Source: Prochlorococcus sp. AG-459-D04 (GTDB lineage: Bacteria > Cyanobacteriota > Cyanobacteriia > PCC-6307 > Cyanobiaceae). From it: 51,726 nt of DNA. Below, piece after piece: positions 20,664 through 41,341 of this stretch (positions are counted from its first letter, which is position 1; each line of letters starts with the position of its first letter). Location: assembly GCA_003212035.1 (NCBI GenBank), contig QCRA01000005.1, positions 1 through 51,726 on the forward strand, given 5' to 3'. The position numbers and the translations under genes are program-made. The notes under the pieces are model-generated. The model had not been told where the DNA came from. It searched no databases and saw nothing but the letters and a program-made list of their open reading frames with translations.

Positions 20664-20734
20664 GGCGGCATGGCCAAGTGGTAAGGCAGAGGATTGCAAA
20701 TCCTTTATCCCCAGTTCGAATCTGGGTGCCGCCT
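20664..20734 (+). tRNA. tRNA-Cys (anticodon GCA)
   Basis: This 71-base cloverleaf has acceptor GGCGGCA paired with TGCCGCC, anticodon stem GAGGA/TCCTT around loop TTGCAAA with anticodon GCA, and a T-arm CCCAG/CTGGG with loop TTCGAAT. CCA is not encoded. A short T run (20734-20738) follows directly and may aid termination. The antisense reading of this tRNA produces a spurious N-terminal extension on the adjacent gene. Confidence 0.96.
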
Positions 20735-20932
20735 TTTTCAAATTAGTAAATAATTTCGCTGAAAAGCGTTCCAAACACAAAAGATTATTGTAGCGATTCT
20801 TAATATTCAAGACGTTTAGAGATGGGCGGTTAGTGAGCGGCTAGTTTTCTGATAATTTATCAGATCTCTTTTAACCTGTTTTTATTATCTCATTTGGCGA
20901 AAATAAAAAAAGGATAGTGGGTTTAAATCTTT
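20735..20932. other. Intergenic region with GC-rich patch and 7-bp palindrome
   Basis: No ORF of note lies between tRNA-Cys and the next small gene. At 20815-20852 a GC-rich stretch carries TTTAGAG, two GCGG copies and TTCTGA, similar in order to 906-935. It runs into the palindrome CTGATAATTTATCAG (20849-20863), with 7-base arms around one base. A small RNA or regulatory element is possible; nothing named is recognised. Confidence 0.3.
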
Positions 20933-21223
20933 TTAAGCAAAAATACTTTTTTCTTTTGCAAATCTTTTAATGGTCTCAAGACTATTTGATAATCTTGAAA
21001 GACGATCTTCCTCAAATAAATATGGAGGAAAGAATTCAGATATAACTCTCATAAAAAAATTTCCATAAAAATCAATCAGCGAATCTACGCGGTTTCCAAA
21101 TTTAACACTGTTATGACTCAAAACTATTTCCTTATCGAGTAATAATAGAATTTCCTTTAAAATTTCATTACTTAATGCTTCATGATTAATACAGTTGTTT
21201 ATTAACGTTGATATTGGTATCAA
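20933..21223 (-). CDS. Hypothetical protein
   Basis: This 96-residue open frame has a coding-like composition: leucine-rich amphipathic helices such as EILKEILLLLDKEIVL and a charged C-terminus. I recognise no domain. The start is a TTG at 21221-21223; an in-frame stop lies just upstream (21227-21229) and there is no early ATG. No membrane segment is seen. It is isolated from neighbours by gaps of 136 and 198 bases. Confidence 0.5.
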   Translation of the reverse strand: MIPISTLINNCINHEALSNEILKEILLLLDKEIVLSHNSVKFGNRVDSLIDFYGNFFMRVISEFFPPYLFEEDRLSRLSNSLETIKRFAKEKSIFA

Positions 21224-21290
21224 ATTCTATTTGCTTGACAATATTATTGATTTATCTCTCTTTTTTATTGATAAATAATACCTGATATCG

Positions 21291-37834: not shown

Positions 37835-37911
37835 AAAAGATTTACTACTAACTATACGCTAGCTAGAGAGTAGCAACTTTGCACATATACTACATATAGT
37901 TTTTTATTTTA

Positions 37912-37985
<74 letters not shown>

Positions 37986-38020
37986 AATAGATGATTTTTG
38001 GAGTATTTAGCATTATGCTA

Positions 38021-38395
38021 AATGAAAGCAGGAGAGGCAATCGCGAGAAAGTTTTATTTTGTTTCCAAAATAAAACTTTCTTGAGGAAAGTCCGGGCTCC
38101 CATATGGTCAGGCTTGCTGGGTAATTCCCAGTGCGGGCAACCGTGAGGATAGTGCCACAGAAACATACCGCCTAATACTTTATGTATGGCAAGGGTGCAA
38201 GGGTGTGGTAAGAGCGCACCAGCAACATTGAGAAGTGTTGGCTAGGTAAACCCCGGCTGGGAGCAAGGCTTAGTAGATTTATGACCATTACAAAATCTAC
38301 TTTTAAGCGCCGCTTGAGATTGTGAAGTAATTCCAGTCCTAGATAGATGATTGCCCATCTTTATTAAGATGAACAGAACCCGGCTTATGACCTGC
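38021..38395 (+). ncRNA. rnpB: RNase P RNA, 3' end apparently cut
   Basis: This is the catalytic RNA of RNase P, which matures tRNA 5' ends. Type A elements are visible: a 15-bp perfect hairpin (38047-38061 with 38066-38080), the P4 strand GAGGAAAGTCCGGGC (38083-38097), CCACAGAAACA (about 38155), and the 3' conserved ACAGAACCCGGCTTATGACC (about 38373-38392). The closing helix P1 should pair the 5' AAATGAAAGCAGG with a 3' complement. Only CCTGC (38391-38395) is present and the sequence then changes to antisense rimM. So the gene appears truncated within P1 at the inversion boundary. Start is estimated from the P1 position. Confidence 0.93.
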
Positions 38396-38632
38396 ATGAT
38401 TTCTTGTATTTATTCCTTTAAGCTTTACTATAAAGGTTTCTTTACCAGGCTGTTTAAAACCAGATATAAGTTCTATTTTAGAAGGAGGTTCATTTTCTTT
38501 TTGTAACCATCTCATTCCAGGTTTTATAAATCTTTCTTCAAAATCACTTAGAGATTTAACCTTTAACTGCCCATTAATTCCATGACATGATGTTATTAAT
38601 CCAACAATCAACCATTCATTTTTATTTATCAT
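38393..38632 (-). pseudogene. rimM: RimM ribosome maturation factor, N-terminal part only
   Basis: The ATG at 38632 begins [20 protein letters not shown], followed by [20 protein letters not shown] and [14 protein letters not shown]. This is the first barrel domain of RimM, which binds ribosomal protein S19 during 30S maturation. After about residue 80 the frame runs on for 17 codons through antisense of rnpB to a stop at 38339 and no longer resembles RimM. The missing C-terminal domain lies on the opposite strand at 39253-39414. See the inversion entry. Confidence 0.85.
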
Positions 38633-39252
38633 AAAATTATATTAGAAAGAATGTTTTATGGAATTATCTGCTAAACCAATACTTCCCGGATCTTTTGTTG
38701 TTGTAAAAGACAATATCTCTATATATAGAGGATATAAAGGGTTTGTACAAAGAGTTACAAAAAAAAAGGCAGCTGTTTTGTTTGAAGGGGGTAATTGGGA
38801 CAAACTCATAACTTTTCAGCTAACGAATTTAGAAATAGTATAAAAATTAGATTTTACCTTTAGCTATAAATTTTTCTATTAAAACTTTAGCTGCATTTGT
38901 TTCTGCTTGTTTATGGGATTTGCCGAATGCAGATGATTCTTTGAATCCTTCGATAAATATATTGCAAGAAAATCTTTTAGGGTCCCCATTTTTTTTTGAG
39001 ACTTCAATTATTTTATAGACTGGCAAATTAAAACCTTTACTTTGACACCACTCTTGCAATACTGTCTTAGATTTGAATTTGTATGGAGCTTTTAAAAATA
39101 TTTTTGAATCTTCCTCCCAAAAATCATCTAACCAAAGATTTACTTCCTGAATTGAATTAAAGCACTTATAAATAGCACCGATTAAAGCTTCTGTAGCTTC
39201 AGCAATAATAGTATTTTTTGAATTTTCATCACCAAGAGCTTTAGGTCCTCTA
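38396..39252. other. Inverted segment bounded by broken genes
   Basis: This block holds rimM 5' (minus), ndhS (plus) and rnc 3' (minus). Both edges cut genes: rnpB P1 and rimM on the left, rnc and rimM on the right. Flipping it would give rnc 3', ndhS on the minus strand, then rimM 5' reading into rimM 3', with all RimM parts on the plus strand. Even then, about 45 RimM codons and the first half of rnc are missing, so sequence was lost at both edges. Edge coordinates are good to about 10 bases. Confidence 0.8.
38658..38843 (+). CDS. ndhS: NDH-1 subunit S (ferredoxin-binding)
   Basis: This 61-residue SH3-like protein has the hallmark GFVQRVTKKKAAVLFEGGNW followed by DKLITFQLTNLE, matching NdhS, the subunit of photosynthetic NDH-1 that helps ferredoxin donate electrons for cyclic electron flow. 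Databases also label this family NAD(P)H dehydrogenase assembly protein/DUF3252. It acts on the cytoplasmic face of the thylakoid. The gene itself is intact, but it lies inside the inverted segment, 25 bases from rimM and 3 from the rnc stop. Confidence 0.9.
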   Translation: MELSAKPILPGSFVVVKDNISIYRGYKGFVQRVTKKKAAVLFEGGNWDKLITFQLTNLEIV

Positions 39253-39257
39253 ATTAT
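38847..39257 (-). pseudogene. rnc: Ribonuclease III, C-terminal part only
   Basis: The readable frame begins near [20 protein letters not shown] (around 39251) and continues through [20 protein letters not shown], the linker KSKTVLQEWCQSKGFNLPVY, and a full double-stranded RNA-binding domain ending AAKVLIEKFIAKGKI. This is the second half of RNase III. Before it the frame is unrelated sequence that reaches a TGA at 39309-39311, and the catalytic signature ERLEFLGDS-like region is absent from the whole window. The break coincides with the right edge of the inversion. The TTG at 39059 is internal, not a start. Confidence 0.85.
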
Positions 39258-39414
39258 TAATTTAGAAAATGAGAAAAATAATTTACTCGTTGTCGAGCTA
39301 TTTAAAAATCAAAAAAAAGTTCTCATACCATTTGTTAAAGAAATAGTTCCATTAGTAGATATTAAAAATAATTTTATACTCATCAATCCTCCAAGTGGAC
39401 TCTTAGAACTATAA
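39253..39414 (+). pseudogene. rimM: RimM C-terminal part (opposite strand to its N-terminal part)
   Basis: The plus-strand frame reads [20 protein letters not shown], then [20 protein letters not shown], then [13 protein letters not shown] and a TAA at 39412-39414. This is the standard end of bacterial RimM (the PRC-barrel domain, with IPFVKEIV and the NPPSGLLEL terminus). No start codon or N-terminal domain precedes it on this strand. It faces the glmS 3' end, 31 bases away. Confidence 0.85.
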
Positions 39415-39445
39415 ATTTAAAAAATACAAGGTTGGAATAAACTAA

Positions 39446-41341
39446 TCATTCCACAGTTACACTTTTAGCTAAATTTCTTGGTTGATCCACATCAAGACCT
39501 CTATGAGCTGCGATATGATAACTCAATAGTTGTAAAGGCAATATATTTATTAGAGGTGAAATCCATTCATTAGATGAGGGAACTTTCATTAAATAATCAA
39601 AGATTTCAGTGCCATTACATTCGGGAGCAATCCCAATCAAATATGAATCTCTAGCTTTTGCTTCTTGAGCATTACTTATAACTTTATCAAAAACTTCACC
39701 GGGGGAGGCAATTGAAATTACGGGTACTTTTTTATCTAATAAAGCTATTGGACCATGTTTCATTTCACCAGCAGGATATCCAGCAGCATGAATGTAACTA
39801 ATTTCTTTAAGTTTTAGCGCGCCTTCAAGAGCAATTGGATAATTTATTCCTCTTCCTAAAAAAATAACATCTTTAATATTAAAAAAGTCATGTGCTAGTT
39901 TTTCTGAAGATTTATTATGTTTCTCTAAGAGATCTTCCAGTAATGGCGGAAGTTTTATAAGTTCATTTATTAATTCTGCTATTTCATCAGGACTTTGATT
40001 ACCTTTAATTTGAGCAAATTTTATAGCTAATCCATAAAAAGAAAGTAATTGAGCAAAAAAAGTTTTCGTTGCTGCAACTCCAACTTCTATTCCTGCGCAG
40101 ATATCAATTATATTAGAAACCTGCCTTCCTATGGAACTCTCTTTTCTATTTGTTATTGCAATAAGATTAGGTTTAAATTTTTTATCTTCAATTGAAGAAC
40201 GTCTTTTAATTTCCATATCTATAGCAGCAATAGTGTCAGCAGTTTCTCCAGATTGAGTGACTCCAATAGTTAATGTATTTGGCAATAATGGTGGTGGTGA
40301 ATATCGAAATTCGCTTGCATAAAAGACATTTGTAGGAATACCTGAAAATTGTTCTAATAAAAAGCTACCTACCATTGCAGCATGTTTACTTGTACCACAA
40401 GCGATAATTTCAATTCTTTCTATTGATTCAAAAAAATCTGTATCGAAGGGATATTTAATTTGATATTGACCATTATCTAAGTTCTTAATTAAATAATTTT
40501 CCAACCAGTTTTTTGCAGTCTTTGGCTGATCATATATTTCTTTTAACATATAGTGTTTGAAGTTCATCTTATCCATTATTTGCTCTGAGACTTTTAGAGA
40601 GACTGGATTTCGATATTGTCTCTCGTTGCTTGAGTCATATATTTCAATTCCAAGCGGAGTTAATAAAGCTATTTCTTCATCCTCCATAGGCAAAATAATA
40701 TTCGTAAAGTTTGCAATGGCTGGAGTGTCACTAGCACAAATAAATTCTCCTTCACCCAAACCAATAATCAAGGGAGCTTGTTTTCTCGCAACTACTAAAG
40801 AGGTTGGGGCCCCAGACCATAAAACTGCTAAAGCATAAGATCCTTCTAAGTCAGATATTACATTTCTCACAGCTATTAATAATGTTGAACCATTATTCTC
40901 AAGATTAAGTTTACCTAATGTATTTAACTCTCTTTGAATTAGATGGGGAATTACCTCGGTATCTGTATCAGAATTAAAAATAATGCCCTCTTCCACTAAT
41001 TTATTCTTTAAATCTTGGAAATTTTCAATAATCCCATTTTGAACAACTGCTATGTTTCCTGAACTATCGGTATGCGGATGTGCATTTTTAACCTCAGGCT
41101 TTCCATGAGTTGCCCATCTAGTATGCCCTATACCCACAGTTCCAGGAATATTGTGATTATTAAGATTATTTATTAAATTCTTGAGTTTTCCTTCTGCTTT
41201 ATTACAAGAAATACAATTTGTTTCGGAATTTATTATTGCAATACCTGCAGAGTCATAACCTCTGTATTCAAGTTTTTCTAAACCATTAATTAATAGTGGT
41301 AAAGCTTTTTTATATCCAGTTACAGCAACTATTCCACACAT
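39446..41341 (-). CDS. glmS: Glutamine:fructose-6-phosphate aminotransferase
   Basis: This 631-residue enzyme has an N-terminal glutaminase domain starting MCGIVAVTGYK with nucleophile Cys2, GYDSAGIA, and GHTRWATHGKPEVKNAHPH; two SIS domains with ACGTSKHAAMVG and the TQSGETADTIAAI sugar-phosphate site; and the C-terminal DQPRNLAKSVTVE. It makes glucosamine-6-phosphate, the entry to peptidoglycan and lipopolysaccharide amino sugars. It is cytosolic. No ribozyme-type leader is seen upstream; the 80-base gap to psaC is AT-rich. Confidence 0.98.
   Translation of the reverse strand: MCGIVAVTGYKKALPLLINGLEKLEYRGYDSAGIAIINSETNCISCNKAEGKLKNLINNLNNHNIPGTVGIGHTRWATHGKPEVKNAHPHTDSSGNIAVVQNGIIENFQDLKNKLVEEGIIFNSDTDTEVIPHLIQRELNTLGKLNLENNGSTLLIAVRNVISDLEGSYALAVLWSGAPTSLVVARKQAPLIIGLGEGEFICASDTPAIANFTNIILPMEDEEIALLTPLGIEIYDSSNERQYRNPVSLKVSEQIMDKMNFKHYMLKEIYDQPKTAKNWLENYLIKNLDNGQYQIKYPFDTDFFESIERIEIIACGTSKHAAMVGSFLLEQFSGIPTNVFYASEFRYSPPPLLPNTLTIGVTQSGETADTIAAIDMEIKRRSSIEDKKFKPNLIAITNRKESSIGRQVSNIIDICAGIEVGVAATKTFFAQLLSFYGLAIKFAQIKGNQSPDEIAELINELIKLPPLLEDLLEKHNKSSEKLAHDFFNIKDVIFLGRGINYPIALEGALKLKEISYIHAAGYPAGEMKHGPIALLDKKVPVISIASPGEVFDKVISNAQEAKARDSYLIGIAPECNGTEIFDYLMKVPSSNEWISPLINILPLQLLSYHIAAHRGLDVDQPRNLAKSVTVE

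Follow-up and report, generated by a model that had tools for sequence, protein, structure and literature searches.

A flipped block that splits rimM and truncates rnc in a Prochlorococcus contig is probably an amplification artefact

The window analysed here, a stretch of 51,726 nucleotides from the assembly of Prochlorococcus sp. AG-459-D04, carries a block of 872 bp (38392-39263) that is inverted relative to the corresponding region of its relatives, with both flanks on the opposite strand. The block separates the two ends of rimM, and part of rnc and the middle of rimM are missing at its edges. We argue that the flipped block probably arose in the laboratory rather than being a new arrangement of genes. 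The reading that we favor, and regard as very likely, is a chimera with two junctions produced by multiple displacement amplification (MDA) and fixed in the assembly.

Gene content of the inverted block

The features of the region, as read on the contig, are the following.

38025-38402, plus strand: rnpB (RNase P RNA, class A), essentially intact to junction 1 (Rfam RF00010; colinear with relatives to 38395)
38392-38395, no strand: junction 1, a 4-nt identity (CTGC) between the rnpB 3' side and the rimM side (comparison with relative L004)
38392-39263, minus strand: inverted block, 872 bp, opposite to both flanks in relatives, including the four aligned along the window
38393-38632, minus strand: N-terminal part of rimM, about codons 1-80, open frame (protein alignment, Pfam)
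38658-38843, plus strand: ndhS, intact, inside the inverted block (ORF, Pfam NdhS)
38847-39263, minus strand: 3' part of rnc, about the last 138 of 245 codons, open frame (protein alignment, Pfam dsrm)
39254-39263, no strand: junction 2, a 10-nt identity, TTATTAATTT (comparison with relatives; the copies in G029 form an inverted pair 1001 bp apart)
39254-39414, plus strand: C-terminal part of rimM, about the last 53 of 179 codons, open frame, ancestral orientation (protein alignment, Pfam)
39446-41341, minus strand: glmS, the intact right flank, in ancestral orientation (ORF, relatives)

The first-pass annotation of this DNA had described the two halves of RimM on opposite strands around an inverted block of about 0.86 kb, with ndhS and the 3' part of rnc between them, and protein alignment, Pfam matches, open reading frames and comparison with relatives and with intact rnc all confirm this description. 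Residues 1-82 of a relative's intact RimM align at 38387-38632, where the N-terminal part, encoded on the minus strand, begins at 38632 and ends near 38393 (Pfam RimM, E 2.6e-16), and residues 126-179 of 179 align on the plus strand at 39250-39411 (Pfam PRC_RimM, E 8.7e-9). Residues 105-245 of the 245 residues of RNase III align on the minus strand at 38850-39272, a fragment that retains the end of the RNase III domain and the dsRNA-binding domain (Pfam dsrm, E 7e-13), and ndhS lies whole within the block (Pfam NdhS, E 4.5e-25). The same annotation had counted about 45 RimM codons and the first half of rnc as missing; placed by the breakpoints, the losses come to about 46 RimM codons and roughly the first 107 codons of rnc. 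The remaining rnc and rimM fragments contain no stop codons and their frames are open.

The supposition that rnpB was damaged together with rimM and rnc did not survive comparison with its covariance model. The match at 38025-38402 covers positions 1-367 of the 367 positions of RF00010 and scores 243.5 bits (gathering score 100). It extends 7 bases beyond junction 1, so that at most those 7 bases are foreign. A damaged rnpB is thus ruled out, because the model matches over its whole length. Within rnpB, positions 38046-38081 form a near-palindrome (89% self-match on the opposite strand), which is presumably a long hairpin of this RNA.

We compared the constraint on the three fragments with that on their homologs, leaving out 1, 7 and 7 gapped or short rows (rimM N-terminal part, rimM C-terminal part and rnc, respectively) as well as identical sequences. 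The pN/pS ratio of the N-terminal part of rimM is 0.163 against a median of 0.176 for the nearest ten (rank 53 of 95 from the top), and that of the C-terminal part, which has one private residue, is 0.134 against 0.148 (rank 56 of 88 from the top). Since the fragments are open and these ratios are ordinary, rimM shows no apparent sign of decay. The 3' part of rnc has a ratio of 0.297 against a median of 0.160, which ranks third of 89 (nearest ten) or second of 89 (all) and tops a smaller set of 21. We do not count this value as decay, and reject the idea that relaxed constraint proves the event to be real, because three pieces were tested and rnc has no private residue, every residue occurring in some relative. 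The overall pattern fits a very recent event or none at all, as a very recent event would leave no trace.

Ancestral order and anatomy of the junctions

In relatives the order is rnpB(+)-rnc(+)-ndhS(-)-rimM(+)-glmS(-). Loci were collected by searching 37900-39500 against the own genome and 59 relatives, and by searching the N-terminal part of RimM against GTDB genome contigs, where the best 80 of 142 loci were compared segment by segment. All three segments have the ancestral order and orientation in 78 of these 80 loci; the other two (L040 and L075) have two segments, both in ancestral order. The relatives' genomes gave 29 loci, some of them apparently the same records as among the 80, and here 28 have three segments and one (L027) has two, all ancestral. 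Aligning the block to other Prochlorococcus genomes, a check that the first-pass annotation had proposed, thus finds the ancestral order in all 109 loci; among these loci, compared in full, none has the arrangement of the window or spans a junction.

The junctions themselves were searched with 191-base queries centred on each of them against 266 genomes of the genus, the own genome included. The own contig matches both queries over their full length (E 3e-96), and the best matches outside the own genome cover one side only (E 2.4e-44 for junction 1 and 3.7e-46 for junction 2). Matches to the junction 1 query occur in 207 of the 265 other genomes and matches to the junction 2 query in 222 of 265, and among the matches listed none spans either junction; low-identity spans could be missed among these matches, and the genomes that match neither side are uninformative. 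The same junctions in an independent genome, as a heritable inversion would predict, were found in none of the genomes examined.

Along the remainder of its length the window is colinear with G004, G023 and G029 except for the inverted block and an indel at about 20.7-21.3 kb beside a tRNA, and G019 is colinear with it over 14457-51726 with the same two exceptions. With the rest of the window colinear, the inverted arrangement lies beyond chance. The one other non-colinear place with respect to these four relatives is a stretch of about 0.5 kb of differing sequence (20744-21260) directly after the tRNA gene at 20664-20734.

Compared with L004, the window is colinear up to 38395, then runs on the opposite strand from the middle of rimM to the middle of rnc, and returns to the original strand from 39254. 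About 362 bp are absent at one edge of the block (the 5' part of rnc and the spacer after rnpB) and about 138 bp at the other (the middle of rimM, 46 codons). The breakpoints joined at the two junctions lie about 1.23 kb and 1.01 kb apart in L004, and each junction joins opposite strands. The overlaps are CTGC (4 nt) and TTATTAATTT (10 nt), and the relative G029 already has two copies of the latter, in opposite orientation and 1001 bp apart. If the region were joined at random, the two sides would share a run of at least 4 nt with a probability of 0.027, and of at least 10 nt with a probability of 3e-5 per random pair of places. Given these low probabilities, microhomology probably guided both joins. 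The overlap statistics speak against random breaks and yet do not separate MDA from template switching in vivo. At both junctions we find the traits by which MDA chimeras are recognized, namely an inverted second segment, a deletion, a short overlap and a distance within 5-10 kb. To these is added that the junctions are unshared with independently derived genomes, among the matches listed and in the 109 loci compared in full.

A probable amplification chimera and its rivals

The assembly comprises 1,144,341 bases in 67 contigs and is 71.8% complete; the window is its contig C5. This completeness and this number of contigs suggest a single-cell assembly, with phi29 amplification beforehand. In the favored reading, phi29 multiple displacement amplification of one Prochlorococcus cell would be the setting, and both the single amplified cell as source and the switches in the tube are inferred parts of it. 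A displaced 3' end may have annealed, through the 4-nt match, some 1.2 kb away on the opposite strand, after which about 0.87 kb would have been copied in the inverted direction, until the 10-nt match returned copying to the original direction; or the two switches may have come in the reverse order. The roughly 362 bp that include the rnc 5' part and 138 bp of rimM would have been skipped between the switch points. The chimeric path would have been assembled, and the true path not, because the switches came early or local coverage was thin.

Published accounts of MDA chimeras agree with this anatomy. Inversions made up 406 of 475 chimeras, with the two segments less than 10 kb apart in 337 of the 406, and at more than 70% of the junctions priming relied on 2-21 nt of complementary sequence (PMC1855051). 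Another study gives overlaps of 3-13 nt for more than 95% and distances mainly below 5 kb (PMC5372508). The present case resembles the inverted chimeras of Lasken and Stockwell 2007 (PMC1855051) in its opposite-strand joins, intervening deletions, short complementarity and distances of about 1 kb. In two single cells of Prochlorococcus MED4, about one chimera per 10 kb was reported, 80% of them inversions; the 454 assemblies held 7 chimeric contigs per cell, and one wrong join was backed by several chimeric reads, possibly from an early rearrangement (PMC2731171). For a Prochlorococcus single-cell workflow, 1.5 misassemblies per 100 kbp are given for three benchmark cultures (PMC6122165).

Several observations count against an artefact. 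One-junction chimeras make up about 96% in the material reported (PMC5372508), so that chimeras with two junctions are a minority; unlike most, the one proposed here has two junctions that restore the outer orientation, and unlike chimeras confined to reads it is fixed in an assembled contig. Single-cell assemblies of P. marinus also tended to have the fewest misassemblies among the benchmark strains of one report (PMC5519541). We also looked for further pieces on the opposite strand. The 80 GTDB loci (778,285 bases, by their names mostly single-cell assemblies) contained none of 80 bp or more where they aligned with three references, and 180 kb of the own contigs C1-C3, compared with G004, contained none of 100 bp or more. 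As about 958 kb of control sequence holds no other such inversion, surviving chimeras of this kind are rare, and we count this result against the artefact.

The main rival is a real and very recent inversion with flanking deletions in the lineage of the cell, made by microhomology-mediated template switching or end joining in vivo. Such an event would have cut short rnc and rimM but spared ndhS and rnpB. Microhomology at the junctions is equally expected of template switching in vivo, and we count it for this rival; an inversion with flanking deletions formed by template switching at a replication fork would bear the same sequence signature as an MDA chimera. It differs in that it would be inherited and would cost the cell rnc and rimM, and no independent genome examined shows it. 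The contig is continuous over both junctions, and the missing pieces are found nowhere else in the assembly. Looking for intact rimM and rnc elsewhere in the assembly had been proposed in the first-pass annotation; queries with whole RNase III and RimM proteins hit nothing but the fragments on C5 among the 67 contigs, and with the missing DNA the hits are confined to the rnpB flank and to short, weak matches (best E 2.1e-4 and 0.0035), so that extra copies of either gene are rejected at both the protein and the DNA level. The unrearranged sequence is therefore absent from the assembly, as it would also be after a real deletion. A phage origin of 37900-39500 finds no support, as the region has no match in the phage collection at megablast sensitivity.

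The first-pass annotation had also reasoned that a streamlined genome could hardly tolerate damage to all three genes, and from this it had put a template-switch chimera or misassembly in the lead. That lead is upheld by the junction anatomy, by the absence of a spanning match among the matches listed and by an assembly that resembles one from a single cell. The reasoning behind it is weaker than stated on two points: rnpB is essentially intact, and loss of rnc and rimM is not clearly lethal. The RNase III genes of Synechococcus PCC 7002 are dispensable and both can be removed (PMC10989914), and an E. coli strain that lacks rimM has been described and shows a prolonged growth arrest (PMC13246957). 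A real inversion is further favored by the rnc ratio near the top of its distribution and by the lack of a second such inversion in 180 kb of the same assembly or 778 kb of GTDB loci. Against it stand the joint loss of two conserved genes in a streamlined genome, fragments free of stop codons with ordinary constraint on rimM, an anatomy that is the routine product of MDA, and the lack of a span among the matches listed from the 207 and 222 genomes that match the junction queries. On balance we consider a real inversion unlikely, at something like one chance in eight in our judgement.

A purely computational misassembly, in which the assembler followed two wrong edges that linked separate chimeric reads of low frequency, or a paired-end bridge, while most molecules were correct, is more improbable still. 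Such errors do occur, at about 1.5 per 100 kbp in the benchmark cultures of a comparable workflow (PMC6122165), and in one MED4 cell extra depth is reported to have corrected 5 of 7 chimeric contigs while two new ones formed (PMC2731171). If correct molecules were dominant, however, the rnc 5' and rimM middle pieces would be expected, and they were not found; this argument is weak, because short contigs may have been discarded. Least credible of all, and close to negligible, is the idea that the arrangement has a function, for instance as a programmed invertible switch or through trans-joining of a split rimM; the inverted geometry speaks for it and nothing more. The flanking inverted pairs measure just 4 and 10 nt, none of the 109 loci has the arrangement, and no match listed from the genus spans a junction. 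An invertible switch is rejected outright, since sequence was lost at both ends and the block therefore cannot flip back.

Implications and observations at neighboring loci

The biological interest of the arrangement is low and its use is as a caution. It offers a worked case of how amplification chimeras can mimic gene loss and gene inversion in single-cell genomes, and counts of rnc or rimM losses or of local inversions drawn from the AG-459-D04 assembly would mislead. There is a slim chance that the inversion is real and fresh in a wild Prochlorococcus cell, the product of two template switches that deleted the start of RNase III and the central portion of RimM but spared rnpB and ndhS. A streamlined ocean cyanobacterium would then survive, at least briefly, without this RNase III and without RimM, a 16S maturation factor, and the event would bear on the dispensability of both in a minimal photosynthetic genome.

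The compared loci hold variation of their own. In Prochlorococcus scB241_528O2 (L084:5679-7883) two genes lie between rimM and glmS. The first encodes a C-5 cytosine methylase (Pfam DNA_methylase, E 6.8e-86), and the next a 331-aa protein that has no Pfam match and a weak match to a type II restriction enzyme (PADLOC, E 2.7e-5); judging from these matches, the insertion is likely a restriction-modification system. The methylase also follows rimM in genome G002 (L026:2809-3870), with 97% identity over 354 residues, and L027 has a weak partial match to the L084 methylase (52% over 48 residues). In L019, from genome G034, the rimM-glmS spacer seems to be interrupted, as its match is split, and the L084 methylase was not found in the stretch examined. 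To the left of rnpB, three of the 80 loci (L081:2720-3184, L090:2243-2706 and L108:2726-3187) differ over about 0.46 kb, which replaces about 70 bp.
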